From assembly GCA_009777055.1 (NCBI GenBank), contig WRMQ01000005.1, forward strand, positions 1 through 54,899: a stretch of 54,899 nt of DNA. Direction: 5' to 3'. The position numbers were made by a program, and so were the translations under genes. The stretch comes from Oscillospiraceae bacterium. Its GTDB lineage: Bacteria; Bacillota; Clostridia; Oscillospirales; Acutalibacteraceae. How positions within the stretch are numbered: position 1 is the first letter of the stretch; every line of letters starts with the position of its first letter. The notes under the pieces are model-generated. The model was not told the origin of the DNA. It saw only the letters and a program-made list of their open reading frames with translations, and made no database searches. Positions 5,352 to 54,899 of this stretch are shown in pieces.

Positions 5352-5366
5352 ACCAAATACCGACTT

Positions 5367-5399
5367 GCCCCTGCGCTTGCATTACGCCTGCGCAGGGGC
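5367..5399 (+). terminator. Hairpin after integrase, probable terminator
   Basis: GCCCCTGCGC (5367-5376) pairs perfectly with GCGCAGGGGC (5390-5399), followed by TTATTTCATT. It lies 15 nt past the integrase stop and just before the ribosome binding site of the next gene. Confidence 0.6.
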
Positions 5400-5426
5400 T
5401 TATTTCATTGTTGAAAGGAGAACCCC

Positions 5427-6533
5427 ATGCCAACCTACCACCTGGAGCTAAAGCAGCTCGTCGATTACCCCCGCTGCCGCATCTACCGAGACTTCATCCG
5501 AAGCCTGATGGCTGACCGGAACCTTCATTCAAAAGGAGGTTCCGGTCTTTTTTATTTTACAACCCTGTGCAGCTACGCCAACTTCCGACCGTCCAACCGC
5601 CGGATCGAGGGCACGAGCTACGCGCTGATGCCCGGCGAATGGATCTGCCGCCTGTCGGAGGTCACGCAGTGGTTCCGTATGCGTTATCAGTGGCAGGCCC
5701 TGGCCGAGCTGGAATACCTGCAACGGCAGCAGTACATCACGTTCTCGCGACACGCCCGCGGGCAGCTGGTGAAGTTTCATATCACGGACTGGGAACTGTT
5801 CAACACAGTCCCCGGCTGCGACGGGCCCTGCCGGAAGGAGAGCGGCTTTTTCTTCCTCCCGGTCGCGAAAGCGAATGAACTCGTCAAGCTAGGGCGCTGC
5901 TCGGAGCTGGATATCGTGCTGGACCTCTGGATGCAGACGGTCTACAACGAGGACCGGGTGCGCGGCTCGGAGCTCGGCCCGGTGGTCTACTACCGCAACT
6001 GCACCGGCGACCCCTTCGCCAGCTATAACGAGCTGGCACAGCGCTGGGGCGTATCGAAATCGACGGCGGGCCGGGTGCTGAACCAGCTTGCCGAGCAGGA
6101 CTATCTTACGCTGGTTCCCTGCACGGGCCGCCGCGGCACCGTGATCTATCTCAATCATTATCTCTCGACGATGTTTGAAATTTCCGACGTCATGATCGAC
6201 AAGGAGGAGGTTGCCATGACCCTGCACGTCAACGTCAAAGTGTGCGACGACCCCGCCGCCCGCGTCTCAGAATCGCAGATTCGCGTCTCAGATTTGATCC
6301 CCAGCGTGCCAAAATCGCATACGCTGCAAATCGTCCGAAAAGCGGCGCAAACCCTTGCCGTGTTTGGGATTCCGTGCTGTGAGTGCTCCCACGCCCTATA
6401 TAACTTATTTCTTTTTCCCGACTGCCTGGGGGAACCAACCGCCAACCTGGAGATTTATTGCGGCCAAGGCGGCAAACAGCGCTATTGCTTCGAGCTGCGG
6501 GCGGCGCGGCAGGAGGGGGGCGGGCCGGTATGA
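5427..6533 (+). CDS. Winged-helix DNA-binding protein (368 aa), possible replication or regulatory protein
   Basis: A putative DNA-binding protein at the head of the element's plus-strand genes. Residues about 55-115 (PGEWICRLSEVTQWFRMRYQWQALAELEYLQRQQYI) look like a first winged helix, and about 200-250 (SYNELAQRWGVSKSTAGRVLNQLAEQDYLTLV) are a clear second helix-turn-helix with recognition helix SKSTAGRVLNQL. Proteins of this layout occur in clostridial ICEs near the integrase, where they are annotated as MarR-like or replication-initiation-like; I cannot separate these. GAAAGGAG precedes the ATG. It overlaps the next gene by ATGA, indicating translational coupling. A strong terminator-like hairpin lies inside the first 43 codons (5514-5553), suggesting attenuation within the coding region. 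The C-terminal third (about 270-368) is unassigned. Confidence 0.7.
   Translation: MPTYHLELKQLVDYPRCRIYRDFIRSLMADRNLHSKGGSGLFYFTTLCSYANFRPSNRRIEGTSYALMPGEWICRLSEVTQWFRMRYQWQALAELEYLQRQQYITFSRHARGQLVKFHITDWELFNTVPGCDGPCRKESGFFFLPVAKANELVKLGRCSELDIVLDLWMQTVYNEDRVRGSELGPVVYYRNCTGDPFASYNELAQRWGVSKSTAGRVLNQLAEQDYLTLVPCTGRRGTVIYLNHYLSTMFEISDVMIDKEEVAMTLHVNVKVCDDPAARVSESQIRVSDLIPSVPKSHTLQIVRKAAQTLAVFGIPCCECSHALYNLFLFPDCLGEPTANLEIYCGQGGKQRYCFELRAARQEGGGPV
5514..5553 (+). terminator. Intragenic terminator-like hairpin in the winged-helix gene
   Basis: GACCGGAACC (5514-5523) pairs perfectly with GGTTCCGGTC (5538-5547) and is followed by six T (5548-5553). The loop contains AAAAGGAGG, an anti-Shine-Dalgarno-complementary stretch. 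It lies at codons 30-43 of the gene starting at 5427, so termination here would cut the transcript early. Confidence 0.6.
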
Positions 6534-13403: not shown

Positions 13404-13504
13404 GACATCCTCCGGGAAACAGTATATCAATAATTATAACTGAACCAGACAACAAAGGCAAGGTTTTCTTGCCATCAAACATAAAAAAGAACAGGAGCCC
13501 GCCC

Positions 13505-35747: not shown

Positions 35748-36884
35748 ATGGCCAGACGCGGTGAAAATATCTACCACAGGAAGGACGGGCGCTGGGAGGG
35801 CCGGTATATCAAGGGCCGCAGGCCCGACGGCAAGGCGCTGTTCGGCTCCGTCTACGGGCGCACGTACAGCGAGGCAAAAAACAAGCTGATCCCGCTGAAG
35901 GCCGCGCATTGCGGCCCGCGCCCGGCCGGGAGCACCGCGCCGTTCCGGGAGCACCTGCTGGCGCACCTGGCGCAAAAGGGGGCAAGCCATATCAAGGCGT
36001 CGTCGCTGAGCAGCTACCACAGGATCGTGCACAACCATCTTTTGCCCGGGCTGGGGACGTACCCGGCGCACCAGCTCACGCCGGGGCACGTAACGTGCTT
36101 CCTGGACGGCCTGCGCGGGTCCGGCCTGAGCGGCGGCACGGTTTTGAACATATTCCGCTTCCTCGCGGGCGTGACGAAGCAGGCCGCGCGGTCGGGCGCG
36201 ATGGCGGGGGACGTCTGCGAAGGGATTTCATTGCCGCGGCCGAAACGCAAGAAGGTCAGCGCGCTGTCGCGCGGGCAGCAGGAAGCCGTGGAAAAGGCGG
36301 CGCTGGCGGCGATCCGGGGCAGCGGCTCCGCCCTTGGGCTGGACGTCATGATCGCGCTGAACACAGGCATGCGCGTGGGCGAAATCTGCGCGCTGCGCTG
36401 GGGCGACGTGGACCTTGAAAGCGGCGTAATCCACGTCAGCCATACGCTCCAGCGCTTGAGCCTTTACGGGCAGGGAGCGAAGGCCGGGCCTCAAACGGCT
36501 ATCGTGATGGACGCGCCGAAAAGCGAAGCCTCCGAGCGGGACATCCCGGTCAACACCCTGCTTCTGCGGCTGCTGCGTGCAAAACGGCAGCGCGCCGGGG
36601 GCGAATTCGTGATGGAGGGGCGGCGCGGGCCGGTGGAGCCCCGTGTGCTGCAATACCGCTTCGGCAAGCTGCTGGAACGGGCGCGGCTGCCCCATTTTGG
36701 CTACCACGCGCTGCGGCACAGCTTCGCCACGCGCTGCGCGGAGCTCCACGTGGACACGGCGACCATCAGCAGGCTGCTGGGCCATTCCTCCATCAGGACG
36801 GCGGAGGAAACCTACGTCCATTCCCTGATGGAGCAGCGCTTCAAGGCTGTCTACAAGCTCGACGAGCTGGCGTTGGCGGCGTAG
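35748..36884 (+). CDS. Second tyrosine recombinase (378 aa)
   Basis: A site-specific recombinase of the phage integrase family. The N-terminal arm-binding domain is GENIYHRKDGRWEGRYIKGR; the core-binding helical domain covers about 65-155. Catalytic residues are intact: R209 (GMRVGE), H320-A-L-R323-H324, LGHSS and Y356 (ETYVHS). GGAAAGGGG precedes the ATG. It is unrelated in detail to the integrase at 4212. Inverted 15-bp and direct 12-bp repeats flank it, and it sits at the boundary of the surface-protein island, so it could be an invertase for that island or the integrase of a separate element. Confidence 0.92.
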   Translation: MARRGENIYHRKDGRWEGRYIKGRRPDGKALFGSVYGRTYSEAKNKLIPLKAAHCGPRPAGSTAPFREHLLAHLAQKGASHIKASSLSSYHRIVHNHLLPGLGTYPAHQLTPGHVTCFLDGLRGSGLSGGTVLNIFRFLAGVTKQAARSGAMAGDVCEGISLPRPKRKKVSALSRGQQEAVEKAALAAIRGSGSALGLDVMIALNTGMRVGEICALRWGDVDLESGVIHVSHTLQRLSLYGQGAKAGPQTAIVMDAPKSEASERDIPVNTLLLRLLRAKRQRAGGEFVMEGRRGPVEPRVLQYRFGKLLERARLPHFGYHALRHSFATRCAELHVDTATISRLLGHSSIRTAEETYVHSLMEQRFKAVYKLDELALAA

Positions 36885-37255: not shown

Positions 37256-37606
37256 ATGGATAATATGCAGGGCTTCGCCTATCAACAGCAATACGTCTAT
37301 CCGCCCCAACAAAACGCGTGGCAATATCAGGCTGTCCAACAGCAGCCGTTTGACGCGCCGGATGACTGCGGTTGGGACGCGTTGCTTGAGCAAATCGGCA
37401 GCACAACCGACGCGCCGCCTCCCCAGGCCCAACGCGAACCCCCGGCCGAGGCCGCAACTATCACGAAGCAACAGCTGCGCTCACTCAACCGCAGGCACCT
37501 GTTGATCATGGTCTGCAATCTGCAAGAAAGGCTGCGACAGGAAATACGGGAAAAAGAACGGATGCTCCTGGCGTACCAGGCGGGCTCTTCGCAAGGACGG
37601 CAGTAA
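37256..37606 (+). CDS. Short coiled-coil protein, cassette copy A (116 aa)
   Basis: First gene of a three-gene cassette. The N-terminal 65 residues are Gln/Tyr/Pro-rich and disordered (YQQQYVYPPQQNAWQYQ). The C-terminal 45 residues are a charged coiled coil, TKQQLRSLNRRHLL then RLRQEIREKERMLLA. That C-terminus is paralogous to the protein at 52525 (ITEKQLRALSKKHLL, RREKEFLLRA). No known family. AAAGGAAGAG precedes the ATG. It may regulate, or act as scaffold for, the signal peptidase and surface protein that follow; the position is the same in both cassette copies. Confidence 0.7.
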   Translation: MDNMQGFAYQQQYVYPPQQNAWQYQAVQQQPFDAPDDCGWDALLEQIGSTTDAPPPQAQREPPAEAATITKQQLRSLNRRHLLIMVCNLQERLRQEIREKERMLLAYQAGSSQGRQ

Positions 37607-37640
37607 TCAGGCCGTTAAAAAAACAAAGAGGACGTTAAAA

Positions 37641-38240
37641 ATGAAACAGAACGTGCGTAAACAAGCCGGCGCCTTTGGGTATCCGACCGTGGAAATACTT
37701 CGCGGCGAAATCGCGCGCTGCGAACGGATGGCGTCTTACGGACGATTGGCAGGCGGCATTTTGGCAGCTATCCTGGCGGCTGCGGCCGCGGTTATTCTAG
37801 TGACGAACCTTTGGGTTTCGGTGCTGCGGGTCGACGGCTCCAGCATGAACCCGCTGCTGCAGACAGACGGGATCGTTCTGGCCGTGAAAAGCGAGACTGT
37901 CGAGAAGACAGACGTCATCGCCTTTACCCGCGACAATCAGCTCCACATCAAGCGCGTGATCGCCACGGCGGGCGACCGGGTGGACATCGACAGCGGGGGC
38001 ATCGTATCCGTCAACGGACGGCCCTTGGACGAACCGTATATCACACAGCCCAGCCTGGGCAGCTGCGATATCGAGTTCCCATACACAATCCCATCCGGGA
38101 CTGTGTTCGTTTTGGGCGACAACCGCGCGGACAGCATAGACAGCCGCGACAGCCGCTTCGGGCCGGTGAGCAGGGAGCAGCTCGCGGGGAAGGTCAGGTT
38201 CAGCATATGGCCGCTCTCACGGCTCGGAAGTATTGCATAA
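37641..38240 (+). CDS. Signal peptidase I, cassette copy A (199 aa)
   Basis: A membrane serine protease that removes signal peptides. One transmembrane helix (about 35-58) precedes the S26 catalytic domain. The Ser-Lys dyad is intact: S68 (D-G-S-S68-M-N-P) and K104 (HIKRVIA). FVLGDNR and SxDSRxxGPV (box E) follow. It is the bacterial (P-type) form, having Lys rather than the His of SipW. It is paralogous to the one at 52804 over its full length. Placement directly before a giant surface protein with an unusual leader suggests a dedicated processing role, as for pilus-island signal peptidases in streptococci. An ATG start follows AGAGGACG. Confidence 0.9.
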   Translation: MKQNVRKQAGAFGYPTVEILRGEIARCERMASYGRLAGGILAAILAAAAAVILVTNLWVSVLRVDGSSMNPLLQTDGIVLAVKSETVEKTDVIAFTRDNQLHIKRVIATAGDRVDIDSGGIVSVNGRPLDEPYITQPSLGSCDIEFPYTIPSGTVFVLGDNRADSIDSRDSRFGPVSREQLAGKVRFSIWPLSRLGSIA

Positions 38241-38263
38241 AAAACATAGGACGGTGCGGAAGA

Positions 38264-41200
38264 ATGAAGAGGAATGATACGGTCATGGGGAAAATTTTAG
38301 CGGACAAACGGCGCGGGAAGATCGCTTTGGCTGTCTTTGCGCCGCTGCTGGCTGCTGTGGTCGTGCTCACGGGCATATTGTCCTTGCTGCCCGCGTTGAC
38401 GGCCGGGCCCGTAACCGTGGCCGACGTCATATGGAACTACCCCACCGCCTATGAAGAGGACGAGGTGGCGCAATACGGCCAGGAGGGGCGGGTCACGTCC
38501 ATGTCGGCCTGGACCTCGTGGGCGCTGGACCACCCTGGAACTGACCCCATCCTCTTCACACCGGGCACATCCGGCACCGACCCAAGGCTGCCGGACGACG
38601 ACGTTATCTACACGCCGACAGGCATCGGCGGTTACGCGCCGGTATACGGCCACGGCACAAAGACGCAGGACCTGCTCCCCCGCGACAAAAACAGAGGCGA
38701 GCGCCATGTCGTCAAGTCGGACTGGAGGGATGAGAACAACTTCGCCGTACTCGCGCCGGACAACCAGTTCGCGGTTGCCGACCCGGCGACGGGCAACCTG
38801 AAATGGCCCGACGTCTACCGCAATCTGAAATTTTACGGCTACGACAAAACAGCCGGCACCTTCGACTTCTGGTACGCGGAGGCGCTGCTGCGCTGCGTGG
38901 AGGTTACCTTCGATATTATACCGGACGACATGGATTACACCAGAAAATGGGCTGTGGGCACGTTTATCAACGGCGCCATGTCCAGCATTTCTTCCAAATA
39001 CACCGGCTATGCCATTGTCATCTCCTGCCCCGGCAGCAACGACCCCAACATCCCCGCCCCCGCCAAAATGGAGCTGGTCTGGATCGACGGCTGGAAGCCG
39101 GACGACGAATATTTCGACGTCCGCGGCGAGTTCGTCAAGAAATGCGTCCCGGTCATGACCATCGCCACCGGCATTACGGGCGCGCCTGACCAGGTCTACC
39201 GGTTCCAGATGCTGCGCAACACGACCACAGGGCAATTCAAGCTGTTTATGGCGGCTCCCTTAAGCGGCAAGGCGCAGCTGATCGTCGATATGCAGAACCC
39301 GAAGAATCTCAACAAAAGCGGCAATATCACACCGAACAGCTACTGCGGCTTCGGCGCTTTCACCGGCTATTACACCGGACCCGCGCCCGCTGTGCTTTCG
39401 ATCATGAAGTTCGAGCGCATCCGTTTTTTGCGTGAATCCACCATGAAGCCGGTGACGACCCATGCTACCGTGAAATTTCTGGACGTCAGCAACAGGAGCA
39501 ATGTGATCGCGACAGAGCAGACCAAGCCCATCCTTTCCAGCATCAACGCCATGTTCCTTTCCGGCGGGACTTTTAACGACAACGTAAACTGGGGTGTCTC
39601 CGGCGACAGATACAGGATCACGCCGCCTAAAACCATCACCGACGGCGGCGACGTCTGGAACTACGTGGGCTCCAACCGGCACCCCACCTACCCTGACCCC
39701 CAAATCCCGCTGGATATGCTTACCTACGGCGCGGTCCCCGACGACAATATTACCGAGCTTTACTATAAAAAAGAGGTTCCGCCCGAGCCGCCCGAGCCGC
39801 CGGGGCCGGGCGACCCCCCGCTTCCTCCCGACCCCTTCACGCTGAGCAAGGACGCGGCCGGGGGCAACGGCGCCCTGCTGAACCCCGTGGAAATCAACGC
39901 GGGCAGCACCATAGACTACACCCTCAACCTGACAAACCCCCGCGCGGCACAAAACGCGCCGGCACAGCCCGGCGACCCGGGCGAGCCTGAGGGGCTTGTG
40001 TTTACGGAGATATGGGCCGGCAACAACCACGAGGCCATAGCAAAGGGCTCGGACGGTAAGTTTTACAGCTGGGGGCGGAACAACCTCGGCCAGCTGGGCC
40101 TGGGCGACACCACAGACCGTGACACTCCCACTGAGATAACGGGCCTGAACGGAAAAAATATTACCGAGATTCATGCAGGTAATTACTTCTTCGTAGCAAA
40201 GGGAGCGGACGGGAAGTTTTACGGCTGGGGGGCGAACGACGTCGGCCAGCTGGGCCTGGGCGGTGCGATGACTCGCTACACCCCCTCCGAGATCACCGGG
40301 CTGAACGGCAAAAGCATTACCGATATTTGGGTGGGAAACAATTTTACCTTCGCGAAAGGCGCGGACGGGAAGTTTTACAGCTGGGGGAGTAACAACAACG
40401 GCCAGCTGGGCCTGGGCGATTCCGGCTCGGCGACCCACCGCTACACCCCCACCGAGGTCACCGCGCTGAGCGACAAAAACATCACCGATATTTGGGCGCC
40501 AGACTCTTTTGTCATTGCGAAAGGCATTGACGGTAAACTTTACAGCTGGGGAAGGAATAGCGCCGGACAGCTGGGCCTGGGCGATATGACGGCGCGTAAT
40601 ACTCCCACAGAGATTACAAACCTGAACGGATTAAATATCACCGACATTTGGATATCAATTTCGACACAGCCTTCCGTCGTCGCGAAAGGCGCGGACGGCA
40701 AGTTTTACGGCTGGGGAAGCAACTTCTTTAGCGAAATGGGGCAGGGCTTCAACCTTACTGCCCCCACATCATACCTTGAGCCCATCGAAATAACGGGGCT
40801 GAACGGGAAAAACATTGAGGAGGTTTATCCGGGGCGCGGCTGTTTCATCGCAAAGGGCACGAACGGCAAATTCTACGGCTGGGGACGGAACAACAACGGC
40901 CAGCTGGGCCTGGGTCCGAGCGCGTTGTCCACGATATATGAGCCCACCGAAATCACCGGTCTGAACGGGTTAAATATTTCCAAAATATACCCGGTGCTGG
41001 GAACCGCCTCATCCAGCTGTTATGGTTCTTTCTTTGCGCAAAGCACGGACGGTACATTTTACAGCTGGGGGTATAACGGCCAGGGACAGCTGGCTTTAGG
41101 CGATACGGCCAACCGCAACACACCCACCGAGGTCCCCGCGCTGAACGGCAAAAATATAACTGAGCTTTATGCTCTCGAAAGTCAAAACAACGTTGCTTCT

Positions 41201-44200
41201 GTCTTCGCCAAGGGCGCGGACGGCAAGGCGTATGTCTGGGGTTACAATCTCTACGGCCAGCTGGGCCTGGGCGACACCACAGACAGAACCACCCCCACGC
41301 TAAACCCCAACTTCTCCTTTGACGCCGGGGTGTTTACGGATATATGGCAGGGCGGGAGTTACAGCACCATCGCTTTTAATATAGCCAAAGCGGCCAACGG
41401 CAAATTTTACGCCTGGGGATCCAACAACAACGGTCAGCTGGGCCTGGGCGATACCGTAGACAGAGACGTGCCCACAGAAATCACGGCGCTGAACGGCAAA
41501 AACATTACGGATATATTGATATCCGTTCGTTCTGTGTTTGCCAAGGGCGCGGACGGCAAGTTTTATGGATGGGGTCAGAACATCAACAGCCAGCTGGCTC
41601 TGGGCGATACCGTAAACAGAGACGTGCCCACAGAGATCACGGCGCTGAACGGCAAAAATATTACCGGATTCAGACTCGTTGGCAGCTCAGGTGTATTTGC
41701 AAAAGGAGCTGACGGTAAATGGTACGGCTGGGGATTCAACTCCTCCGGATCGCTGGCTCTTGGTGATACCACACGGAGAAGCCTGCCCGAACAAATCACC
41801 GCGTTTAACGGTTTGGGCATCGTTGAGGTTGTTGCTTCCGAGTATTCTGGCATCGCCAAAGGAAATAACGGAAAATGGTACGGCTGGGGGCGTAACGACA
41901 ACGGCCACCTGGGCCTGGGGGATAACACAAACAGAGCCTGGCCTACCGAGATCACCGGACTGAACGGGTTAAATATCACAGATTTGTATTTCTCGGGCAG
42001 CAACTCAACTGAACTATCTGTTTTCGCGAAGGGGCTGGACGGAAAGGTTTACGCCTGGGGATATAACAGCAGCCTCGGGGATCTGGGCCTGGGCGATGAT
42101 CTTGGCAGGAATATACCCACTCAGATCACCGGGGTGTTACTCGGCAAAAACATTTCCGAGCTTTTCATGGGCCAATACATTTACACTAAAATCGCGAAGG
42201 ACGCGGACGGCAAGTTTTACACATGGGGCCCGTATACCGCCTCCGTCGGCTGGGGCGCACGGCTTTTGCCCGAAGAGCTAACCTCCGGCTGGAGCGGCAA
42301 GGGTATTTCAGATATTTATTTAAACAGTGACGCTAACATCTACAACGCCGCGATTATGGCAAAAAACACCAACGGACAGCTTTTCTCAATGGGGAGAGGT
42401 ACAGTGCTTGGGCTGGGGGGCGGTTCTGCCCTTTCCACCCTCACCCAGATCTCCGCGCTGGACGGGAAATTTATCACGGATCTCTGGAGCCGGAACGGCT
42501 CCTCCATCGCCAAGGACGCCGAGGGCAGATATTACAGCTGGGGATACAACGGTGCCGGCCAGCTGGGCCTGGGCGACACCGCGGACCGCAACACCCCCAC
42601 CGAGATCACCGAACTGCCGGTGCTGACGTATACCAGCGACAGCGGGCCGGCCGACACGCGGCTTGTGTTTGAGCAGATATGGAAAAGCGATTACAGGCGC
42701 AGCTTTATCGCCAAAGCCACGGACGGTAAGTATTACGGCTGGGGCTACGGCGGCGGCTATTACCTTGGCAACAACGACACGTCGGATCAATTGACCCCGG
42801 TTCACATTCCCAGCCTGGACGGCAAGGACATCGCCAAAATCGTTTTCGGCAACAAGACCACCTTTGCCGTGGGCACGGACGGTAAGCTGTATTCCGCCGG
42901 GAATACTGCCAACTCTACCGGCAGAAACGCCGTGCACGCCACGTTTATCGAGGTCGGGCAGAGCGGCAATAATCTGAACGGCAAGGCCGTTACCGATGTG
43001 TGGATCGCTATCGCTCCTACTTCATTAGACGACAGCGTCATCGTTAAAACATCAACCGGAGATTTTTATGTCTGGGGCAGTACTATTGCTCTGCTTGGCA
43101 TGGGCATTGTCTCGGCGGTTACGCCGGCGCTTAACAACAATCTGAACGGTATAACAGAAATTTATCCCTGCGGACACGCCTTCATCGCGAAGGACGCAGC
43201 CGGTAAGCTTTACGTCTGGGGCTATAACGCCATGGGTGAGCTTGGCAGGAACGGGCCCATAGACCTCTCTTTTACGGAAGTCACGCCTTTTGAGCTTACT
43301 TCCTTCGGCTTCGCGGGCAATTTATTGAACGGCAAGACCGTCACGGACGTATGGACGGCACCCGGCTACGGCGTCACAGGCGGCACCGTCATGGTCAAAA
43401 CCACGGAAAACAAAATATACAGCTGGGGGCGCGGCGCCACAGGCATTACCGGCTTCGGCGACACGACAAACCTGGCCGCGCCCAAGGAAGTCACAACGTT
43501 GTCCGGCAAAAACATCACCGATGTCTGGTTCGGGTACGGTCACGGCATAGCCAGAGGCGACGACGGCAAATTTTACAGCTGGGGCAACAACAACATGGGG
43601 CAGCTGGGCCGCGGGTCCGTCCCGTCAGGGTCGCTTCCGGGTGAAATAGACACGATGGACGACCTGGGCGTCACGGATGTATATATGGGCGACAACTTTA
43701 CGATTGTCAAAGCCGCCGGCGGCAAGTTTTACGGCTGGGGGCAGAATGACGTTTATAACCTTGGCATGAACAGCACGACGAATTTGTACTCTCCCACGGA
43801 ATTGGGACTTCTGCAAAGCAGAGGGATCATCGACCTGTGGATTTCAGGGAACGGCGTCGTTTCCCAGGCCGCCAGCGGCGACGTATGGGTCTGGGGCGAA
43901 AGCGGCAACGGCGCTTTCGGGGAGGGCAGCTCCAACACAACCTTGCAAAAGCCCACGCTGAACGCAACTTACCGCTTCGAGCCAAACTACAGCGCCTACT
44001 ACTTCATCGTAACCGACCTACTCCCTGAGAACATGACCCTGCAAATGGACGGGGACGACCCGTGGTACTCAATAAGCGGCGTGGATCCGTCCGCTCTGGG
44101 CGAGCTGTACGCGATCAAAACCACGGAGAAAGGCCAGGAGCGCATCACCTTCTACTTTACCGCACTGCCCTCGGCCACGGTCAAATTCAACTTCAAGGCC

Positions 44201-47035: not shown

Positions 47036-47109
47036 CATCCCCCCGCATCCGCGGGTTCACATAAAGCCCCCTAAAAAAAACAAAAAGAAAAGAAAAGGAG
47101 TCCCAAAGC

Positions 47110-48648
47110 ATGAAACTTCGAAAAATCATCCCCCTGATCCTGGCGCTGGCCATGACCCTGGCCTTCGCCCTGCCGATGAGCGTGTCGGCGGCTGGCGAAA
47201 ACGCGACCCTGACCATCAACGCGCCCAACAACTATGTCATCGACAGCGCCAACTTCACCGCCTACAAGCTCTTCGACGCATCGGCCAGCGGTGAAAACTA
47301 CAGCTACGTGCCCGCAATCGACTTCACCGCTTTCCTGGGCGTGGAGGGCAACGAAGGGTTTGTCGACCCTGACCTCCTGGGCTACATTGATGCCCATCGC
47401 GACGAAGGCGACCTCATTGATTTGAACATTGCCTTGACGGCCTTCGCCAAGGACCACGGTTTCGACCTTACGAAGAAAACCGCCACGCAAATCGACGCGA
47501 ACAGCGTAAAGTTTACCGGCCTGGACTACGGTTACTATTTGGTTGTGGACACTTCATCAGGCGGCAAGGGCTTCAGCAACCTTTACACCGTCGAAGCGCC
47601 CTCCCAGGAGAACAACAACAATACCGTCCAGCTCAAGGTTGATTTGCCGACGATTACGGACAAGCAGGTTTCCAAGGACGGCGAAACCTACGACAGCAGC
47701 ATCGACGCCAAGATCGGCGACACTGTATACTTTGAAATCACCACAAAAGTTCCGGCGATGGAAGGCTACACCAGCTATGAATTCATTGTGGTCGACGAGA
47801 TGAGCAAGGGTTTGAGCTTTAACGATGACGTTAGCGTGACCATCAACGCAGTCGGCTACGCCAGCACAAATTATGACGTAACGCATAACCCTATCGCCTC
47901 CGGCCCCAAGGAGGGCGGCACTAAAATCGAAATCGACTTCGTGAATATCTTCGCCCAGAAAGTCAACGCCGGCAAGGTTATCGTCATCACCTACTCCGCC
48001 GTGCTGACCGCGGCAGCCGCTGATTCTCTCGGCGCGGACAACAGCGCCACCCTGAAGTACAGCAACGACCCCTACGACGAGGGAACCGGGAGCTCCGAAG
48101 CGAAGATAGCCGATGTGGAAACCTTCAAGCTGGACATCCTCGCCTACGACGCCAACGGCGGCAAGGCGGCGAGCACGACAAACGGCCTGGAAAATGCCAA
48201 GTTCAACCTGTTCGACGGCGCAAAGAAGCTCTGGTTCATCGAGGATGGCGGCAAGTACATTGTCACGGACGCAGCGGATGAAAACAAAATCGATACCCTC
48301 GTTTCCGACGGGGACGGCATGATCTACATCATCGGCCTTGACATCGGGACGTACAGCTTGCAAGAGACGTTGCCCCCCGAGGGCTTCAACGAAACCGCCA
48401 CGAACCCCATCGAGATCGTGATCTCAAGCACGGAGGGCGTACCCCATATCAAGGTTGGCAACAATGCTGCTGAGGCCGGAAGCCAGGTGAACGTCCCCCA
48501 TATGAGCGGCGGCATTTTGCCCGGCACCGGCGGCATCGGCGCGGTGAAGGTGGTCCTCGGCGGCTGCGCCCTTATGGGCCTGGCGGCATTCGGCTTCGCC
48601 TTCTTCGTGCGCAGGAAAAGGCGCGCCGGAGCGATGCAGGCGGCGTAA
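47110..48648 (+). CDS. Pilus backbone subunit, SpaA type (512 aa)
   Basis: A sortase-polymerised major pilin. The signal peptide is about 1-28 (ending SVSAA). The middle contains an isopeptide-forming D2-type domain (LPTITDKQVSKDG, with Lys of a pilin-like motif, then VDEMSKGLSF) and a Cna-B domain (ENAKFNLFDG, GTYSLQETLPPEGF). The C-terminal signal is LPGTG (470-474), a hydrophobic helix and RRKRR. AAAAGGAG precedes the ATG. The class C sortase follows 29 bp later, so polymerisation is local. Its LPGTGGIG context matches FPMVGGIG of the giant protein upstream. Confidence 0.92.
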   Translation: MKLRKIIPLILALAMTLAFALPMSVSAAGENATLTINAPNNYVIDSANFTAYKLFDASASGENYSYVPAIDFTAFLGVEGNEGFVDPDLLGYIDAHRDEGDLIDLNIALTAFAKDHGFDLTKKTATQIDANSVKFTGLDYGYYLVVDTSSGGKGFSNLYTVEAPSQENNNNTVQLKVDLPTITDKQVSKDGETYDSSIDAKIGDTVYFEITTKVPAMEGYTSYEFIVVDEMSKGLSFNDDVSVTINAVGYASTNYDVTHNPIASGPKEGGTKIEIDFVNIFAQKVNAGKVIVITYSAVLTAAAADSLGADNSATLKYSNDPYDEGTGSSEAKIADVETFKLDILAYDANGGKAASTTNGLENAKFNLFDGAKKLWFIEDGGKYIVTDAADENKIDTLVSDGDGMIYIIGLDIGTYSLQETLPPEGFNETATNPIEIVISSTEGVPHIKVGNNAAEAGSQVNVPHMSGGILPGTGGIGAVKVVLGGCALMGLAAFGFAFFVRRKRRAGAMQAA

Positions 48649-48677
48649 CGCCGGCTCCAAAGAATAGACAACATGAG

Positions 48678-49535
48678 ATGAGGCCTATGAAGAAGAAGTA
48701 TGTAACCTGTGCCATCGGCGGCGCTTTTATACTGGTGTTCCTCATAGGCCTCTGCGCGGCGCTGTACCCCTTTATAGGCAATTATCTCAATTCCCGCAGC
48801 CAGGCCCAGGCCGTCGCGCACTACTTCGAAGACGTTTCGGGCATGGACGGCGAAAAAATACAGGAGGCCCTGGAGGCCGCGCGGGAATACAACAGGCAGC
48901 TCCTGCGCGAAAGCAACCGCTTCGAGTTCACGCCGGAGAGTACGCAGGCGTACAGGGCGCGGCTCAACGCCGGCCGCGGGGTTATGGGCATCCTGACCAT
49001 CGGCAAGATCGACGTCAAGCTGCCCATCTACCACGGCACGGACGAGGGCGTGCTGCAGGAGGGCCTGGGGCATATGCAGGGAACCTCGCTGCCAGTGGGC
49101 GGCATCGGAACCCACTCCTTTATTACAGGGCACCGCGGCCTGCCCTCGTCCACCCTGCTGACCCACCTGAACAAGCTGGCCGAGGGCGACGTTTTTACGC
49201 TCTTCGTCCTGGGCGAAACCCTGACCTACCGGGTGGACGACATCCAGACCGTGCTGCCCAACCAGCTCAGAACCCTGGACATCGACCCGGACATGGACTA
49301 TTGCACCCTGGTTACCTGCACGCCCTACGGCGTGAACACCCACCGGCTGCTGGTGCGCGGGCAGCGCACGGAGAACGCGCCGGGCGAGGATTGGAAGGAA
49401 ATCCACGCCAACGCGAAGCGGCTCGAAAAGTTCAATATTATTTTGCTGTTTATGGTTCCGGCCCTGCCGGCCCTGCTAATATTCACGGTCCTGCGGTGCA
49501 GGAAAATCCGCAAAGGAGGAATCGTTTACTTATGA
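48678..49535 (+). CDS. srtC: Class C (pilin-polymerising) sortase (285 aa)
   Basis: A membrane transpeptidase that links pilin subunits. N-terminal (about 10-32) and C-terminal (about 250-272) transmembrane helices are both present, as in class C. The catalytic residues are H152 (ITGHRGLP), C214 (VTCTPYG) and the Arg of THRLLVRG near 223. Between the helix and the core, residues about 55-90 include a lid-like region. An alternative start at 48687 (MKKKYV) is possible. It overlaps the next gene by ATGA. It serves the backbone at 47110 and the minor pilin at 49532. Confidence 0.93.
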   Translation: MRPMKKKYVTCAIGGAFILVFLIGLCAALYPFIGNYLNSRSQAQAVAHYFEDVSGMDGEKIQEALEAAREYNRQLLRESNRFEFTPESTQAYRARLNAGRGVMGILTIGKIDVKLPIYHGTDEGVLQEGLGHMQGTSLPVGGIGTHSFITGHRGLPSSTLLTHLNKLAEGDVFTLFVLGETLTYRVDDIQTVLPNQLRTLDIDPDMDYCTLVTCTPYGVNTHRLLVRGQRTENAPGEDWKEIHANAKRLEKFNIILLFMVPALPALLIFTVLRCRKIRKGGIVYL

Positions 49536-50254
49536 AACGATTGCTGTTAATTACGCTCGCGGCCGCCTGCCTGCTGCTGCCGGCCGCGCACGCCGTGTCC
49601 GCCGCCGGGCCGGAACCCCTGACGATCATTATAAAATACGGCGGAGAAGCGCTCGCCGGGATCAACGTGGCAGTCTGCCGCGTCGCCGGCGAGAGAGAGG
49701 GAAGCGGCGGTGTGATGTATGAGGCTTCGCAGGCGTTTTCCGGCGCGGGGGCCGATTTTTTAAACCTGACCGAAGAAAAGAATATCGCCCTGGCCGCAGC
49801 CCTCAACAGATATGCCGCCGCGAATCATATTGAGAGAAGCGCCAAGCTTACGGACAGCGAAGGCAAGGCTGTTTTCGCGGGCTTGCCCGACGGATTATAT
49901 CTCGTGGCGCAAATGGACGCTGAAAGCAGCGAGTACATCATCGCGCCCTACCTGGTCGTCCTGCCCCGCGACGCGGTTTCGCTCCCGAAATCCGAGCCGG
50001 TCAAGCGCGAGCCCCCAACGACCACCGCCGCGCCCGCTTCAAGCGCAAACGAGGGCGGGCCGGACTATGCCCTGCCGGGAACCGGGGAGCCTGACGCGGA
50101 CGCAAGCAAGCCCGGCAGGTTCACCCTGCCGAAAACCGACGACCTGAACAACCTGGCCCTCTGGCTTGTCATTATGGGCGGCAGCTGCGCGGGCTTCGTG
50201 ACTGTGGTTCTTCTGGCAAGGAAGCGCAAACGGCGCGAAAAGAATCCTGCTTAG
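49532..50254 (+). CDS. Minor pilin with two sorting-like motifs (240 aa)
   Basis: A small exported pilin-like protein. The signal peptide is about 1-25. A single Cna-B-like fold follows (KYGGEALAGINVAVCRVA, LTDSEGKAVFAGLPDGLYLVAQ). A Pro/Thr/Ala-rich stretch leads to LPGTG (181-185) and, 13 residues later, LPKTD (199-203), a hydrophobic helix and KRKRREK. LPKTD is at the usual distance from the helix, so it is the likely sortase site; LPGTG may be a relic or a second site. AAAGGAGG precedes the ATG, which overlaps the sortase stop. It probably caps or anchors the pilus. Confidence 0.85.
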   Translation: MKRLLLITLAAACLLLPAAHAVSAAGPEPLTIIIKYGGEALAGINVAVCRVAGEREGSGGVMYEASQAFSGAGADFLNLTEEKNIALAAALNRYAAANHIERSAKLTDSEGKAVFAGLPDGLYLVAQMDAESSEYIIAPYLVVLPRDAVSLPKSEPVKREPPTTTAAPASSANEGGPDYALPGTGEPDADASKPGRFTLPKTDDLNNLALWLVIMGGSCAGFVTVVLLARKRKRREKNPA

Positions 50255-50351
50255 CGTCCCGGCGCAGTGCTCCGCGGCAGTCAAGTCCTAACAGAATCCC
50301 CTGATTTTACTTTCTTCACTTTTCTCTTTCTTTGTTCTTTCCTTTGTCCTT

Positions 50352-50491
50352 CCCCCCGGCTCTGCAAGGATGCCGGGGGGCGCGGGGACGGCGCCGATTA
50401 CGTATCCGAACGGATACTTATATATTTCGGGGACGTCCAAAGCAAAGGCCGTTCAAATCCCCGGCTCTGCTATAAAACAGGGCCGGGGGAT
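50352..50491 (+). promoter_or_regulatory. Leader region with hairpins and a 7-2-7 inverted repeat
   Basis: CCCCCCGGC (50352-50360) / GCCGGGGGG (50372-50380) may end the pilin unit. GTATCCG (50402-50408) / CGGATAC (50411-50417) is a compact palindrome, a possible operator. ATCCCCGGC (50457-50465) / GCCGGGGGAT (50482-50491) forms a leader stem before the LytTR gene. No gene lies in 50255-50571. Confidence 0.55.
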
Positions 50492-50571
50492 CTTCCCGGA
50501 GGAACCGGGACCATGCAAATTGACGTGAAAACGCATTCTTCAAAAATGAAACCCGACAGGAGGTGACCTGC

Positions 50572-51294
50572 TTGAATGCCCTGCGCATCGTCATATGCGA
50601 CACAAACCCGGCGGAGCTGGACCGGCACGCGGCGCTGTGCCGGGCGATCTGCGAACGGAAACAGATTCCGGCCCTTTTCACGAAGTTTTCCAGCAGCCAG
50701 ACGCTGCTGTTCGAGATGCTGGATCCGGCCTTTTCCTCCGCGGCCAGCATCCTTGTGCTGGAGCCCTTCAACGGCTGCGAGGTGGTCGCCGAAGCGGTGC
50801 GGCAAGCGGGCTATGACGGCATTATCCTGTACCACAGCTGGGCGACGAAGAAGGAATATTTTTACCAGGCGTTCGACGCGGGGGCCTACAATTACGTTGA
50901 AAAAGGCGGCTACACCCGGTTCGAGACGGTATTCGAGAGTGCCCTGGAGGCCGCCCTGCGGCTGGAACGCCATTACATTTTCCTCAACTGCGCCGGAGAG
51001 TACCGCCAAATTGACCTGCGGGATATCTACTATTTCGAACCGGCACTGAACCACATGATCTGCGTTTGGTACAAAACCGGCAAATTCCTTTTTCAAGACA
51101 GCCTGTCCAACCTGGAAAAACGCCTGAAGGGCCACGGCTTCATCCGGATCCACCGCTCCTATCTGGTGGCTTTGAACGCGGTATACCGCGCGGCGTTCGA
51201 TCAAGTGACACTCGTCAACAAAAAAATCATCCCGGTCGGCCGCGGCAATTACGCCGCGCTGAAAGAAGCCCTGGACAAATGGAGCCGAATATAG
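50572..51294 (+). CDS. LytTR response regulator with degenerate receiver (240 aa)
   Basis: A transcription regulator. The N-terminal receiver-like domain (1-120) has VICDTN with a single acidic residue (D10), and the phospho-acceptor position reads L-V-L-E64-P-F, Glu instead of Asp; K111 (YVEKGG) is kept. The C-terminal LytTR DNA-binding domain (about 140-240) shows IDLRDIYYFEP, GFIRIHRSYLVALNAV and IIPVGRGNY, all typical. The start is TTG at 50572 with AGGAGG eight bases upstream. No sensor kinase is adjacent. It follows the pilin genes and precedes a Cys-repeat membrane protein, so it likely controls the island independently of phosphorylation. Confidence 0.88.
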   Translation: MNALRIVICDTNPAELDRHAALCRAICERKQIPALFTKFSSSQTLLFEMLDPAFSSAASILVLEPFNGCEVVAEAVRQAGYDGIILYHSWATKKEYFYQAFDAGAYNYVEKGGYTRFETVFESALEAALRLERHYIFLNCAGEYRQIDLRDIYYFEPALNHMICVWYKTGKFLFQDSLSNLEKRLKGHGFIRIHRSYLVALNAVYRAAFDQVTLVNKKIIPVGRGNYAALKEALDKWSRI

Positions 51295-51308
51295 GCACGG
51301 AGGTTTGT

Positions 51309-52214
51309 ATGCGTAAAATCAAACGCATCGTCCGGATATGCCGGACGACCGTGCTCCTCGCGGCCTTGCTGTGCCTGTCCGCGCGCGCCGCCCCGCTTGA
51401 TGAATGCGACGCGGGCCGGCACCGATACGCGGAAACCCAGCGGGTCGCGGCCACGGCAATGGAGGACGGCAGGGTCGAATACACCTGCGGCGTCTGCGGG
51501 CACCAGTACGCGGATACTATTTTCGCCACCGACCACCTTTGGGGCGGCTGGGTGACCGACAGGCGGCCCACCTGCACCGAGGCGGGGGAAAGGCACAGGA
51601 CCTGTACCCGTGATCAGCGCCATGACCAGTATGGCGCAATACCGGCCCTCGGGCATGACTACAAAGAATCCATTGTCAACCCCGGCTGCGAACAGGCGGG
51701 CGAGAAAACCTTCGCCTGCACCCGCTGCGGTGACAAATATACCGAGCGCATTGCGCCGCTCAAACACGAGTACAAAGAGGCCGGTAAGCTCGAACCCTCC
51801 TGCCTCGAGCCGGGGAAGAAAACCTTCGTCTGCGCCAACGACTCCGCGCACAGCTACGAGGAAAGTATCCCGGCCATCGGCAGCCACGACTTCGACGAAT
51901 GGCAGGTGGAAACCCCAGCCGGGGAGGGCACGGAGGGCACTGAAGCGCGTAAATGCGCCCGCTGCGGCCTGGTGGAGCCCCGGACGATTGCGGCGCTGCC
52001 CGTGCCGACCACCGAGCCGCCCACCGAACCGCCAGACACGCTGCCCGTGATGGACATCGTCCTGGTCAGCGCGAACGCCGTGTCCCTGGGCTTTTGGGCG
52101 TTTCTTCTGATTCCATATTTGGTATGCTTTTTTTACATTCGGAAGCGGCGCAGGATCGTGGAGGAACGCGACGCGCTGCGGAAAGAGGCGGACGATCTTT
52201 ATGGCTATGAGTAA
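51309..52214 (+). CDS. Exported Cys/His-repeat membrane protein (301 aa)
   Basis: Not assigned to a named family. A signal peptide (about 1-27, ending ARA) is followed by about four 38-42-residue repeats with paired cysteines and IPALGHDY-like endings: YTCGVCGHQY, HRTCTRDQRHDQY, FACTRCGDKY, FVCANDSAHSY and RKCARCGL. Such repeats are common in clostridial surface proteins. A Thr/Pro-rich linker (TTEPPTEPPDT) leads to a C-terminal transmembrane helix (about 256-280) and a cytoplasmic coiled tail. There is no sortase motif. It lies 14 bp after the LytTR gene and overlaps the next gene. Confidence 0.75.
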   Translation: MRKIKRIVRICRTTVLLAALLCLSARAAPLDECDAGRHRYAETQRVAATAMEDGRVEYTCGVCGHQYADTIFATDHLWGGWVTDRRPTCTEAGERHRTCTRDQRHDQYGAIPALGHDYKESIVNPGCEQAGEKTFACTRCGDKYTERIAPLKHEYKEAGKLEPSCLEPGKKTFVCANDSAHSYEESIPAIGSHDFDEWQVETPAGEGTEGTEARKCARCGLVEPRTIAALPVPTTEPPTEPPDTLPVMDIVLVSANAVSLGFWAFLLIPYLVCFFYIRKRRRIVEERDALRKEADDLYGYE

Positions 52215-52407
52215 TTGGCTGGAGCTTGCCGCCCTGCTGCTGGGCATCGCCGCGGGCCTGGTCCTGTGGCGGGCCTGCAAGCGGAAGCTCAAGCGGGAAA
52301 GCGGGTTTGAGGGGATCGCCACGGAGCACGGCAGGCTGGCCAGGCGGCAGCAGCTGGATGCCGAGGAAGAAATCAAGCGCCTGAAAGCGCGCCTGGGCAG
52401 GAAATAA
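52201..52407 (+). CDS. Small membrane protein with coiled tail (68 aa)
   Basis: One transmembrane helix (about 8-25, LAALLLGIAAGLVLWRA) followed by a charged helical tail (EEIKRLKARLGRK). ATG 52201 overlaps the previous gene; ATG 52207 is an equally good start. It is probably translated by coupling. No family is recognised. The next 117 bp to 52524 hold no clear site. Confidence 0.55.
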   Translation: MAMSNWLELAALLLGIAAGLVLWRACKRKLKRESGFEGIATEHGRLARRQQLDAEEEIKRLKARLGRK

Positions 52408-52524
52408 CCCGGCCCCATGTATGGCCACCTGCGGTTCAGGCATTGTTTTTTGCGGTTGGAGTAGTTTTCAAGCACAACCGAAGGTTTTTATGCTACCGTA
52501 ACTTTTGAGGGAGAGGGATGAATC

Positions 52525-52749
52525 GTGCGGACCAACCAGAATAATCTGAGCGAAGCCGAAATGGACGACGTGCTGGGACTGCTGGATTCGTGCCTGCCTT
52601 CGTCGCTGCCGAACGGAACCGGCTCGGCTATCACGGAAAAGCAGCTGCGGGCGCTGAGCAAAAAACACCTGCTCATGATGATATACGATCTTGAAAAGGA
52701 GCTTGAGCAAGAAAGAAGAGAAAAGGAATTCCTGCTCCGGGCGCGCTGA
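52525..52749 (+). CDS. Short coiled-coil protein, cassette copy B (74 aa)
   Basis: Paralogue of the protein at 37256. It lacks the Gln/Pro-rich N-terminus and has an acidic start (EAEMDDVLGLLDSCLPSSLP) followed by the shared coiled coil (ITEKQLRALSKKHLLMMIYD, LEQERREKEFLLRA). GTG start at 52525 with GAGAGGG at about 52511-52517. It again directly precedes a signal peptidase I gene. Confidence 0.75.
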   Translation: MRTNQNNLSEAEMDDVLGLLDSCLPSSLPNGTGSAITEKQLRALSKKHLLMMIYDLEKELEQERREKEFLLRAR

Positions 52750-52803
52750 AACCGGCTTCCCGCGTGGGAGGCCAAGGACGTAAAAACAAAAAGGATGTTA
52801 ACA

Positions 52804-53403
52804 ATGGAATTGAATATAATACGCGAGCAGGTCGACAGGCTTGGCCGCCCGGGCCTGCCGATGCTCAGGCGGGAAATCGCGCGGCACGAGCGCAGGGAAG
52901 CCTATGTAAAGCTGGCGCTGGGCGCGCTGGCGGGCCTCCTGGCAGTCACGGGCGCAATTATAATCGTCACAAACCTGTGGGTGACCTTATTGCAGGTGGA
53001 CGGCTCGAGCATGAACCCGCTGCTGCGAATGGACGAGGTCATCCTAGCGGTGAACACGGACAACCCGGCGAAGAACGACGTCATCGCGTTCTACCACAAC
53101 AACAAGCTGCATATCAAGCGCGTGATCGCCGCGGCGGGCGAGCTGGTGAATATTGATGACAACGGCATGGTGACGGTCAATGGCCGGCCGCTGGCCGAGC
53201 CCTATGTGGCGCAGCCCAGCCGGGGCAGCTGCGATATCCCCTTCCCCTACCAGGTGCCCGACGGGACGGTGTTCGTCCTGGGCGACAACCGGCCCTCGTC
53301 CCTGGACAGCCGCGACAGCCGCTTCGGCCCGGTGCCGAAGGAGCAGATCGTCGGCAGGGTTGTTTTCAGGCTATGGCCCCTGCGGGGAGGGAGCAAGCTA
53401 TGA
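52804..53403 (+). CDS. Signal peptidase I, cassette copy B (199 aa)
   Basis: Full-length paralogue of the peptidase at 37641. S69 (DGSSMNP) and K105 (HIKRVIA) form the intact Ser-Lys dyad; FVLGDNR and LDSRDSRFGPV follow. One transmembrane helix at about 36-58. I chose ATG 52804 because AAAAAGG lies nine bases upstream and because the upstream sequence resembles that of copy A; ATG 52795 abuts the ribosome binding site. The two copies differ most in the N-terminal 35 residues, which may fit different partners. Confidence 0.9.
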   Translation: MELNIIREQVDRLGRPGLPMLRREIARHERREAYVKLALGALAGLLAVTGAIIIVTNLWVTLLQVDGSSMNPLLRMDEVILAVNTDNPAKNDVIAFYHNNKLHIKRVIAAAGELVNIDDNGMVTVNGRPLAEPYVAQPSRGSCDIPFPYQVPDGTVFVLGDNRPSSLDSRDSRFGPVPKEQIVGRVVFRLWPLRGGSKL

Positions 53404-53445
53404 CAACAGATCATTTAACAGATTCATTGGAGGATGGTGCCGCGT

Positions 53446-54899
53446 ATGAACACAGAGTCTAACGCAACCTTGGGGAAAATCCTTGCGGGGAAAAAGCGCA
53501 TGAGGATAGCACTGGCTGTCCTGGCGCCGCTTTGCGTTGTCGTTGTGACGCTGGCGGTTGTGCTGTCGCTGCGGGGCGCGCTGGCGGCCACCGTTACAGG
53601 TACGCCCAGCACGGTAAACAGCCATGTGGAGAATTTCACGTTTAACCCCAGCGCCACACATACATATCAAAGCGATGTCAACCTTGCGGCATTGGCTAAT
53701 GGTCCTTATTCTCATTTTCCCGGATTTACATTGCAATCCTCCGGGTCCTCCCCCACCAATCACGTTTTTACGTGCGGCGACCCTGAAGTGCCTCAGCCGA
53801 GCGAAAAGCCCAGCGGTACCACCTTGACATACGGGTTTGGAGGAACCTACACGCAAGCAAAGAACCGGAAAGATTTCCCCTCGGCGCTGGCTTATTCTCT
53901 TATGCTCCCGAATTACGGAGCGAAGCTCACCCTTAGCGAATTCAACGAATTAATGGGTCTTACGGGCACGAACGCTGTAACCGCAGACCAACGGACGATT
54001 CTAATGCACGCCGCCGCTATGTTCTATGAATTCAAGGATAGATATCCCAACCCGCCAAGCGGAACAAGCTGGAGCACAACTAACGATACTTTATGGCCCA
54101 AAAAGCTGCCTTTAATCCCCGGAAGCGCAACGCTTTATGATATAGGTTTTGCAGACATGTTTTACGGCTGGTCATGGGCTGTTGGCATGGAGGACGACCA
54201 CACCACTTTTCTCAACTGGTTTTATACGATTCTGGCAAGGATAGAAGCGTTGATGACGGCTTACAACAGCACAGCTTCGGGGCAGAGTACCTCAAGCCTT
54301 TGGATGAGCTATGACGATGCGACAAAACGCCTGACCTTTGGGTATACAGGCTACCAGCCGCCAACCAGCTCATCCTATCCCACGCTGTCATGGACCATCA
54401 CGGGCGGCGGCACTGTCACGGTTCAGAAAAACGGAGCGGGTGCTTCAATCACAAGCGGCTCCGCCGTTGATATAACCGCCTATTACACAGTAAACTATAC
54501 CGGCAGCGGCAGTGTCGCGTTCACCCTGGCGGACGACAGAAACTTTTTGCAGGGCGGCAGCATAGAAGGATATTTGCTGCAAACGACTACTTTGCTCAAT
54601 ATCAACACCTACCCTGACCCCGTAATGCGCGCAAAGATGTTGGCCTTTTTTTCACCCCTTACTTCCATTCCTTATCAGCGCATGCTGATCGGCCATTCAA
54701 AGTGGGTCAAGCTCAGGTGCGGGCTGACTGTGACGGGTACGACGCCTGAACCCGCCACCGCCGCCATCCAGGTGAACAAGACGGTCAACAAGAACGGCTC
54801 GCCCACGGACCCGGCTTTTACGTTCAACATCGTGCGGGTCACGGATGAAACGGGCAGCACGGCAGTTACCGGTACGGGGGCCTACAGCTCGTCCCAGAA
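53446..54899 (+). CDS. Large surface protein, cassette copy B, truncated by window end (at least 484 aa)
   Basis: Open from ATG 53446 (TTGGAGG at 53428-53434) to the window edge with no stop. The leader MNTESNATLGKILAGKKRMR plus a hydrophobic helix ending RGALAA matches the leader of the giant protein at 38264 (GKILA, then basic, then IALAV-APL). The mature part begins TVTGTPSTV. Residues about 100-330 are a globular region of unknown fold. Near the end, IQVNKTVNKNGSPTDPAFTFNI resembles a pilin isopeptide domain of the FctA/Spy0128 kind. The C-terminal anchoring signal is outside the window. Confidence 0.8.
   Translation, partial: MNTESNATLGKILAGKKRMRIALAVLAPLCVVVVTLAVVLSLRGALAATVTGTPSTVNSHVENFTFNPSATHTYQSDVNLAALANGPYSHFPGFTLQSSGSSPTNHVFTCGDPEVPQPSEKPSGTTLTYGFGGTYTQAKNRKDFPSALAYSLMLPNYGAKLTLSEFNELMGLTGTNAVTADQRTILMHAAAMFYEFKDRYPNPPSGTSWSTTNDTLWPKKLPLIPGSATLYDIGFADMFYGWSWAVGMEDDHTTFLNWFYTILARIEALMTAYNSTASGQSTSSLWMSYDDATKRLTFGYTGYQPPTSSSYPTLSWTITGGGTVTVQKNGAGASITSGSAVDITAYYTVNYTGSGSVAFTLADDRNFLQGGSIEGYLLQTTTLLNINTYPDPVMRAKMLAFFSPLTSIPYQRMLIGHSKWVKLRCGLTVTGTTPEPATAAIQVNKTVNKNGSPTDPAFTFNIVRVTDETGSTAVTGTGAYSSSQ

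Follow-up and report, generated by a model that had tools for sequence, protein, structure and literature searches.

A candidate dedicated signal peptidase with a putative small helical partner for the leaders of pilus tip adhesins in Clostridia

Why some sortase-pilus islands have a signal peptidase of their own is unsettled in those parts of the published accounts that we draw on here: SipA of Streptococcus pyogenes, in which Asp and Gly replace the catalytic Ser and Lys, has no activity (PMC4049620, in the part available), and loss of the Streptococcus suis enzyme weakens backbone polymers. The S. suis srtF cluster comprises sipF, sfp2, sfp1 and srtF; SipF has the conserved Ser and Lys; backbone export and polymerization go on when sipF is deleted, with weaker high polymers; and sfp2 is a pseudogene in the strain studied, its processing being thereby unobservable (PMC2797073, in part). 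Bacillus subtilis SipW is a dedicated signal peptidase for the surface-fibre proteins TasA and TapA, all from one operon (PMC4551309, in part). We describe here a set of genes from an Oscillospiraceae bacterium that bears on the same question. The window analysed, 54,899 nucleotides in length, is a whole contig (WRMQ01000005.1) of its 2.5 Mb, 151-contig genome, and holds two copies of a trio encoding a small helical protein (termed cc), a type I signal peptidase (SPase) and a giant tip adhesin (tip). On balance the sequences lead us to favour the view that this SPase is an active pilus-type signal peptidase I dedicated to the leader of the tip, with cc as its cytosolic partner.

An earlier note on this DNA had placed the trio, in the order coiled-coil protein, signal peptidase, giant exported protein, at 37256 to 47035 and again from 52525 to the contig end, and at both positions it is indeed present, every gene being on the + strand. 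The pairwise kinship that the note claimed is equally clear: the two cc proteins are 47% identical over 45 aa (E 1e-12), the two SPases 61% over 188 aa (E 1e-82), and the leaders of the two giants can be aligned over about 50 aa, with no significant resemblance between the mature parts (best E 0.55, the second giant being incomplete). In set 1, cc1 (37256..37606; 116 aa) has a Pro/Gln-rich N-terminus followed by a conserved ITxxQLRxLxRRHLLxM... helix; the candidate dedicated signal peptidase (37641..38240) is followed by a giant of 2923 aa (38264..47035), whose leader occupies 38264..38401 and, from leader alignments and a drop in DNA identity to paralogue C12 just past the leader, is probably cut between LLPALT and AGP. 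This giant continues into RCC1-like repeats, a glycine-rich domain and a C-terminal FPMVGG end resembling a sorting signal, and by its domains and position is likely to be a tip protein. Set 2 consists of cc2 (52525..52749; 74 aa), recognized by homology to cc1, a second candidate dedicated signal peptidase (52795..53403) and a tip adhesin cut by the contig end (53446..54899; leader 53446-53586), 64% identical over 369 aa to the adhesin of locus C70.

What the note had missed is that the first trio runs on into genes for a backbone pilin, a class C sortase and a minor pilin, and that the genome has four further cc-SPase-giant sets, the window contig holding two of the six. The backbone pilin (47110..48648) matches GramPos_pilinBB and SpaA, ends in LPGTG and has a short ordinary signal peptide; the sortase (48678..49535) scores 253.7 bits with NF033745 (cut-off 160); the minor pilin (49532..50254), whose pilin-family matches are weak and below cut-off, is assigned from its position, its paralogy (68% identity across 219 aa with the corresponding gene of locus C12) and its LPKTDD ending, which resembles a sorting signal. 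A class C sortase of this family, a backbone of this kind and a minor pilin are together those of a SpaA-type pilus operon, which would predict a covalently polymerized fibre. The repeated unit is a sortase-pilus operon of the order cc, SPase, giant tip adhesin, backbone pilin, sortase C, minor pilin, and the trio is its front half. Two tip features stand apart: tip 1 contains a large array of RCC1-like repeats (PF00415, 19 stretches), and the C-termini of tip 1 and of the L020 and L021 tips are unusual in reading FPMVGG, LPMVGG or FPDVGG, against LPGTGG on the backbone.

Searching the genome with SPase2 gave ten matches, of which six have at least 61% identity, and with cc2 eight matches at E<=10, the six at E<=5e-7 each lying upstream of one of those six SPases; all six cc genes are thus beside an SPase, and the four additional sets rule out chance resemblance of the two window trios. 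Copies with enough downstream sequence (C5a, C12, C21, C34) continue with backbone pilin, sortase and at least part of the minor pilin. The mature domains of the giants differ: RCC1-like repeats in C5a, FctA and a thioester domain in C70, SpaA domains in C34, a glycine-rich domain with FctA in C12, and an ice-binding-like adhesive domain with FctA in C21. Domains of these kinds are typical of tip adhesins. Comparison of C5a with C12 locates the change: 53-58 of every 60 bases are identical through the SPase end, spacer and leader, beyond which identity drops at once to background. In protein sequence the two leaders agree at 89% over 47 aa. Between the mature parts, of 2863 and 2095 aa, resemblance is confined to partial stretches, the best two reaching 37% identity (193 aa) and 23% (374 aa). 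The leader is, in these sequences, kept while the mature adhesin part is exchanged, with the swap point right after the leader.

Like the streptococcal islands FCT and PI-2, with SipA or LepA, these operons have a signal-peptidase-like protein inside a sortase-pilus island, and the srtF cluster, as described in the part of PMC2797073 available, has the same order of a signal peptidase with intact dyad, an ancillary pilin, a backbone pilin and a class C sortase. That part mentions no helical partner gene, and it deals with one cluster, where here one genome has six sets and a relative has a single pair that appears to serve other loci. On the reading that we favour, loss of SipF would weaken rather than stop the backbone polymers because the ancillary protein, the expected substrate, is a pseudogene there. 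S. pyogenes SipA, in which the dyad is replaced according to the excerpt of PMC4049620, differs from the trio SPases, which keep Ser and Lys; it shows a loss of the same kind as the SPases of three loci without cc (G108, G308, G453; see below). The SipW/TasA system is, as far as its partial source goes, alike in co-encoding a dedicated signal peptidase with surface-fibre proteins, and different in type. With TIGR02228, the SipW type (archaeal/ER-type), SPase1 scores 18.7 bits against a cut-off of 51.85 and SPase2 has no listed match, and the fibre here is a sortase pilus with cc. Judged by titles and abstract openings, searches of openly licensed papers brought up no description of cc or of a leader-specific peptidase in clostridial pili, and a cytosolic partner is not known for any type I signal peptidase.

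The earlier note had proposed a profile search for co-occurrence of cc with signal peptidase, and had said that homologues found mostly away from signal peptidases would speak against its idea. Profile A1, built from the six cc proteins of the source genome alone, was run on 100 genomes of the family and matched six, its own included; all seven cc genes in the five others adjoin an SPase of the same type, at 275-336 bits, presumed housekeeping SPases of the same S26 family reaching about 160 bits or less against the SPase profile, A4. A broader profile, A6 (27 cc rows), matched 20 of 147 genomes of the order, many matches being its training rows; 25 of 27 cc genes adjoin such an SPase, a recombinase-like gene intervening in one case, and of the other two one (L098, in G219:C99) is beside an apparently broken SPase and the weakest, in G208, lies amid apparent fatty-acid genes. 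Run on the class Clostridia, A6 found cc in 17 of 293 genomes. Thirteen of these, in nine genera, had been neither used nor seen before, and all 15 of their cc genes have an SPase downstream, that of G366 following a second cc-like gene. In the two held-out sets 22/22 cc genes (7/7 and 15/15) precede an SPase, as the note had expected, and homologues lying mostly elsewhere were not found.

The two genes are closely set: with start codons picked by script and two wider pairs excluded, the median spacing is 2.5 nt and 37 of 46 pairs overlap or are separated by 20 nt or less. The full order from cc to the minor pilin is present in at least 14 of 46 stretches, many of the others ending with their contig. 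A scan of genome contigs added four loci, the closest named being L026 and L027, from metagenome-assembled genomes (MAGs) filed as Coriobacteriia and Oscillospiraceae respectively, and L028 (Lachnospiraceae); the fourth, L029, is a 30% identical match from Spirochaetes. L026 encodes a cc of 467 aa, and its filing may reflect horizontal transfer or a misbinned contig; its sample and that of L027 we take, from the sample codes, to be termite guts. Other arrangements were seen in passing. In L153 (G366), cc and the second cc-like gene are followed by an SPase that is divergent, at 171 bits, and by an open frame no shorter than 4000 aa, and tyrosine-recombinase-like genes, recognized by eye, lie beside or inside two cc-SPase loci (L048, own-strand 1-567; L057, 548-1408), where they possibly reflect phase variation or insertion.

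Both window SPases are type I (S26): TIGR02227 gives 114.1 bits for copy 1 and 118.4 bits for copy 2 against a cut-off of 47, PF10502 is above cut-off in both (E 5e-31 for copy 1), and both have the Ser/Lys dyad. Among solved structures the best profile match of the trio SPases is signal peptidase IB (4wvg), with SipA (4n31) and LepA (4k8w) also matched. In the wider set, where five loci unparsed by script were read by eye, Ser is present in 57 of 58 SPases, Lys in 55 and the whole dyad in 55. All 48 SPases with cc keep the dyad; those that have lost at least the Lys (G108, G308, G453) fall within the eight loci without cc (Fisher 0.002, kinship uncorrected, leaving out G406 and one locus with cc matched by A1 alone). 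G453, of the same genus as G406, has no cc, an SPase that has lost both dyad residues and a tip with an ordinary-looking signal. From this conservation we infer that the trio SPase is catalytically competent; a dead SipA is ruled out by the dyad, and a housekeeping enzyme is unlikely by scores and neighbours. The six lower-scoring SPase loci that were read lack cc throughout, and five (L069-L072, L230; not L068) have a YlqF-like GTPase downstream, by eye. An AlphaFold model of SPase from five sequences (mean pLDDT 60.8) served only to note long N-terminal helices. One unusual locus, L138 (G054:C1), has on the minus strand (ORF 4336-6069) a trio-type SPase in one frame with an upstream P-loop ATPase part, DUF4143-like by eye.

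Neither window cc matches any Pfam or NCBIfam family. This suggests that cc is a new, unannotated protein family, the only context found for it here being a signal peptidase. AlphaFold predicts for cc1 one long helix that spans residues 71-111, with block means of 85-96 over 71-110 and low confidence elsewhere (mean pLDDT 63.8). A membrane segment is lacking, the highest 19-residue hydropathy being no more than 1.41 in 48/48 proteins. As a known coiled-coil family or DivIVA-like scaffold, cc was rejected for want of any match for the window copies.

The other element of the trio is the leader. An alignment of 40 tip leaders from cc-SPase loci shows about 20 mostly basic or polar residues, a long hydrophobic stretch and an end of the form [P/T]-[A/G]-x-[T/S/A], after which the leader is probably cut. 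At the putative -3 position A or G is present in 40/40 tips, at -4 P in 28, and at -1 T in 27, A in 8, S in 4 and G in 1. For a type I signal peptidase, Thr is an unusual residue at -1. The tips also differ from the 12 backbone pilins of these loci, with a median n-region of 21 aa versus 6, and with A-x-A close to where the hydrophobic stretch ends in 7/40 versus 8/12. The leader has no NCBIfam match in the four tip proteins scanned; a longer n-region, looked for as a mark of dependence on cc, gave no clean separation.

The leader accompanies cc and SPase across genomes. Its profile, A7, was run on the 293-genome class sample with a cut at E<=1e-8, set post hoc in a gap between 2.1e-9 and 1.7e-6; 31 genomes had matches at E<=0.001, of which the 16 with only weaker ones were taken as probable chance. 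Absences are soft, since no more than 22 leader candidates per genome and no more than 10 SPases in the class search were scored. The leader of L060 begins its contig, where an upstream cc would lie outside the sequence. Fifteen of the 293 genomes have a strong leader, and 14 of these also have cc and SPase (hypergeometric probability 3.5e-20 counted by genome and 8.9e-14 counted by genus, kinship uncorrected). Eight of the 15 had supplied rows to the profile; of the other seven, six have cc and SPase, two being kin of G262 and one of G175. In the source genome, the six leader matches at E<=0.001 are exactly the six tips.

Linkage is not needed for this co-occurrence. G468 has one cc (E<=1) and one SPase of trio type (E<=1e-45), and its five leader proteins are spread over five other loci. 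On the strand of its cc-SPase pair, the 20 kb read contain no sortase or LPxTG protein. None of the five leader loci has a complete SPase in the stretch read: four have a pilin-like LPxTG neighbour, three of them also sortase C, and the fifth, cut by its contig, has a 50-aa SPase remnant upstream. A leader protein and the cc-SPase pair lie on different contigs in G451 and 17 kb apart in G455. The single pair and five distant leader proteins of G468 suggest that cc and SPase act in trans on leader proteins encoded elsewhere.

The conserved trio, the leader, the intact dyad, the genome-level co-occurrence, the trans arrangement and the swap point are present in the sequences; the bond cut, the enzyme that cuts it and the binding of cc to SPase or leader are our reconstruction from them. 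The tip adhesin of each operon would enter the Sec pathway with its unusual leader, which would sit in the membrane, anchor-like, until the dedicated and competent signal peptidase I cuts it; the ordinary pilins, with their short signal peptides, presumably use the housekeeping peptidase. Cytosolic cc would pair with SPase at the inner side of the membrane, the likeliest contact being the N-terminal cytosolic segment of SPase, with perhaps the leader n-region as well, and would thereby recruit or time the cut. SPase and cc would serve every protein in the cell that bears the leader, whatever its mature part, and adhesin domains could therefore be swapped behind one leader. More tentatively, and at less than even odds in our estimate, we propose for Clostridia a trans-acting maturation route in which an active SPase I with a cytosolic helical cofactor reads the leader by a -1 Thr/Ser rule unused by the housekeeping peptidase, so that any adhesin placed behind the leader reaches pilus assembly. 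The adjacency, the 14 of 15 leader genomes and the one clear case in trans agree with the earlier note's idea of a modular export route in which a dedicated peptidase recognizes a specific leader; the trio is not, however, a cassette that stands by itself, but belongs to sortase-pilus operons comparable to the streptococcal SipA/SipF islands.

Several observations weigh against a dedicated peptidase reading this leader. A looser canonical site, [AVSTGLI]-x-A near the end of the stretch, is found in 31/40 tips and 12/12 pilins, so the housekeeping peptidase might cut the tip leaders, and the -1/-3 motif was counted on the alignment from which it was picked. G450 has a strong leader without cc and without a trio-type SPase (at E<=1e-45), and leader-like tips occur without cc in G054, G108 and G308. 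Conversely, a strong leader is missing from three of the 17 cc genomes (G366, G493 and G115, the contig of which stops after SPase), and the cc-SPase pair of G199 is adjoined only by an ordinary pilin; the tie between cc and leader is therefore not strict. Coevolution of SPase and leader beyond that of the operon, tested by distance correlation, was not found: partial Mantel tests on 27 operons gave r 0.12 (p 0.064) for SPase and leader given sortase, and r 0.51 (p 0.0005) for sortase and leader given SPase, so the leader does not track SPase in particular.

The last result speaks for another account, in which SPase would be a SipA-like assembly factor for the whole pilus and not a peptidase for one leader, with cc a scaffold gathering SPase, sortase C and pilins at a single membrane site and the hydrophobic stretch serving to localize. 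This account we consider unlikely, though the least so of the alternatives. The genes do mostly travel as one operon, cc and SPase lie beside ordinary pilins in L121 and L142, and SipA of group A Streptococcus (GAS) is essential for polymerization without being active (PMC4049620, in the part available). The one long cc that weakly recalls DivIVA, L034, scores 21.7 and 15.1 bits with two DivIVA models, far below their cut-offs of 260 and 28. Against an assembly factor of this kind speak the dyad retained in every SPase that has a cc, and G468, where the pair stands apart from sortase and pilins on its strand and the leader proteins are elsewhere.

That cc is a regulator or other small passenger of the operon, the dedicated SPase alone reading the leader, we regard as improbable. 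The length and ends of cc vary widely among relatives, G054 has SPase and a leader-like tip without cc, and L136, L137 and L139 also have SPase without it. A passenger would not be expected to precede SPase in all 22 held-out cases, one of them after a second cc-like gene; nor do Pfam and NCBIfam scans of cc match any DNA-binding family. The SPase of G406 begins with a cc-like segment, LKGLSREDLVDVLY, and is a possible cc-SPase fusion; here too caution is due, the match to the cc core being weak (12 bits, E 0.34) and the G406 tip leader-like by eye, unscored by the leader profile. The L136, L137 and L139 SPases have an N-terminal coiled-coil-like stretch of their own, by eye, and are followed by an ordinary pilin.

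Mere hitchhiking, in which the trio is conserved because whole operons duplicate and move, with no link of leader to SPase and the housekeeping peptidase doing the cutting, would suit six paralogous sets in one genome, correlated distances of all operon genes and the looser canonical sites, and is very improbable given that leader and SPase co-occur unlinked (G468, G451) or well apart (G455) and that the leader persists while the mature part behind it is exchanged.

For the question of why pilus islands have their own signal peptidase, the conserved partner gene and the recognizable leader offer a testable answer, that the peptidase serves the tip protein. By means of the leader, tip adhesins could also be listed for uncultured gut Clostridia, many of which have the unannotated cc family beside SPase.

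Upstream of set 2 lies a regulator module: a LytTR-type regulator of the second operon (50563..51294; PF04397), a membrane protein with CxxC repeats (51309..52214), found by tblastn in three paralogous loci and without a curated profile match above cut-off, and a small membrane protein of 68 aa (52201..52407), found by tblastn in two paralogous loci (69 and 75%). A LytTR regulator precedes cc in four of the six loci of the genome (C5b, C70, C21, C34). Promoter and terminator scans gave 11 sites versus 6.6 in shuffles and 31 versus 21.7, and are not used as support. Elsewhere in the window, 13469-36884, with a TraG-like conjugation ATPase (13469-16375) and a tyrosine integrase (35748-36884), is likely to be an integrated conjugative element whose end adjoins the first pilus operon. 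A giant adhesin at 24613-31122, away from any trio, has a thioester domain, 17 SpaA stretches and a short ordinary signal peptide.

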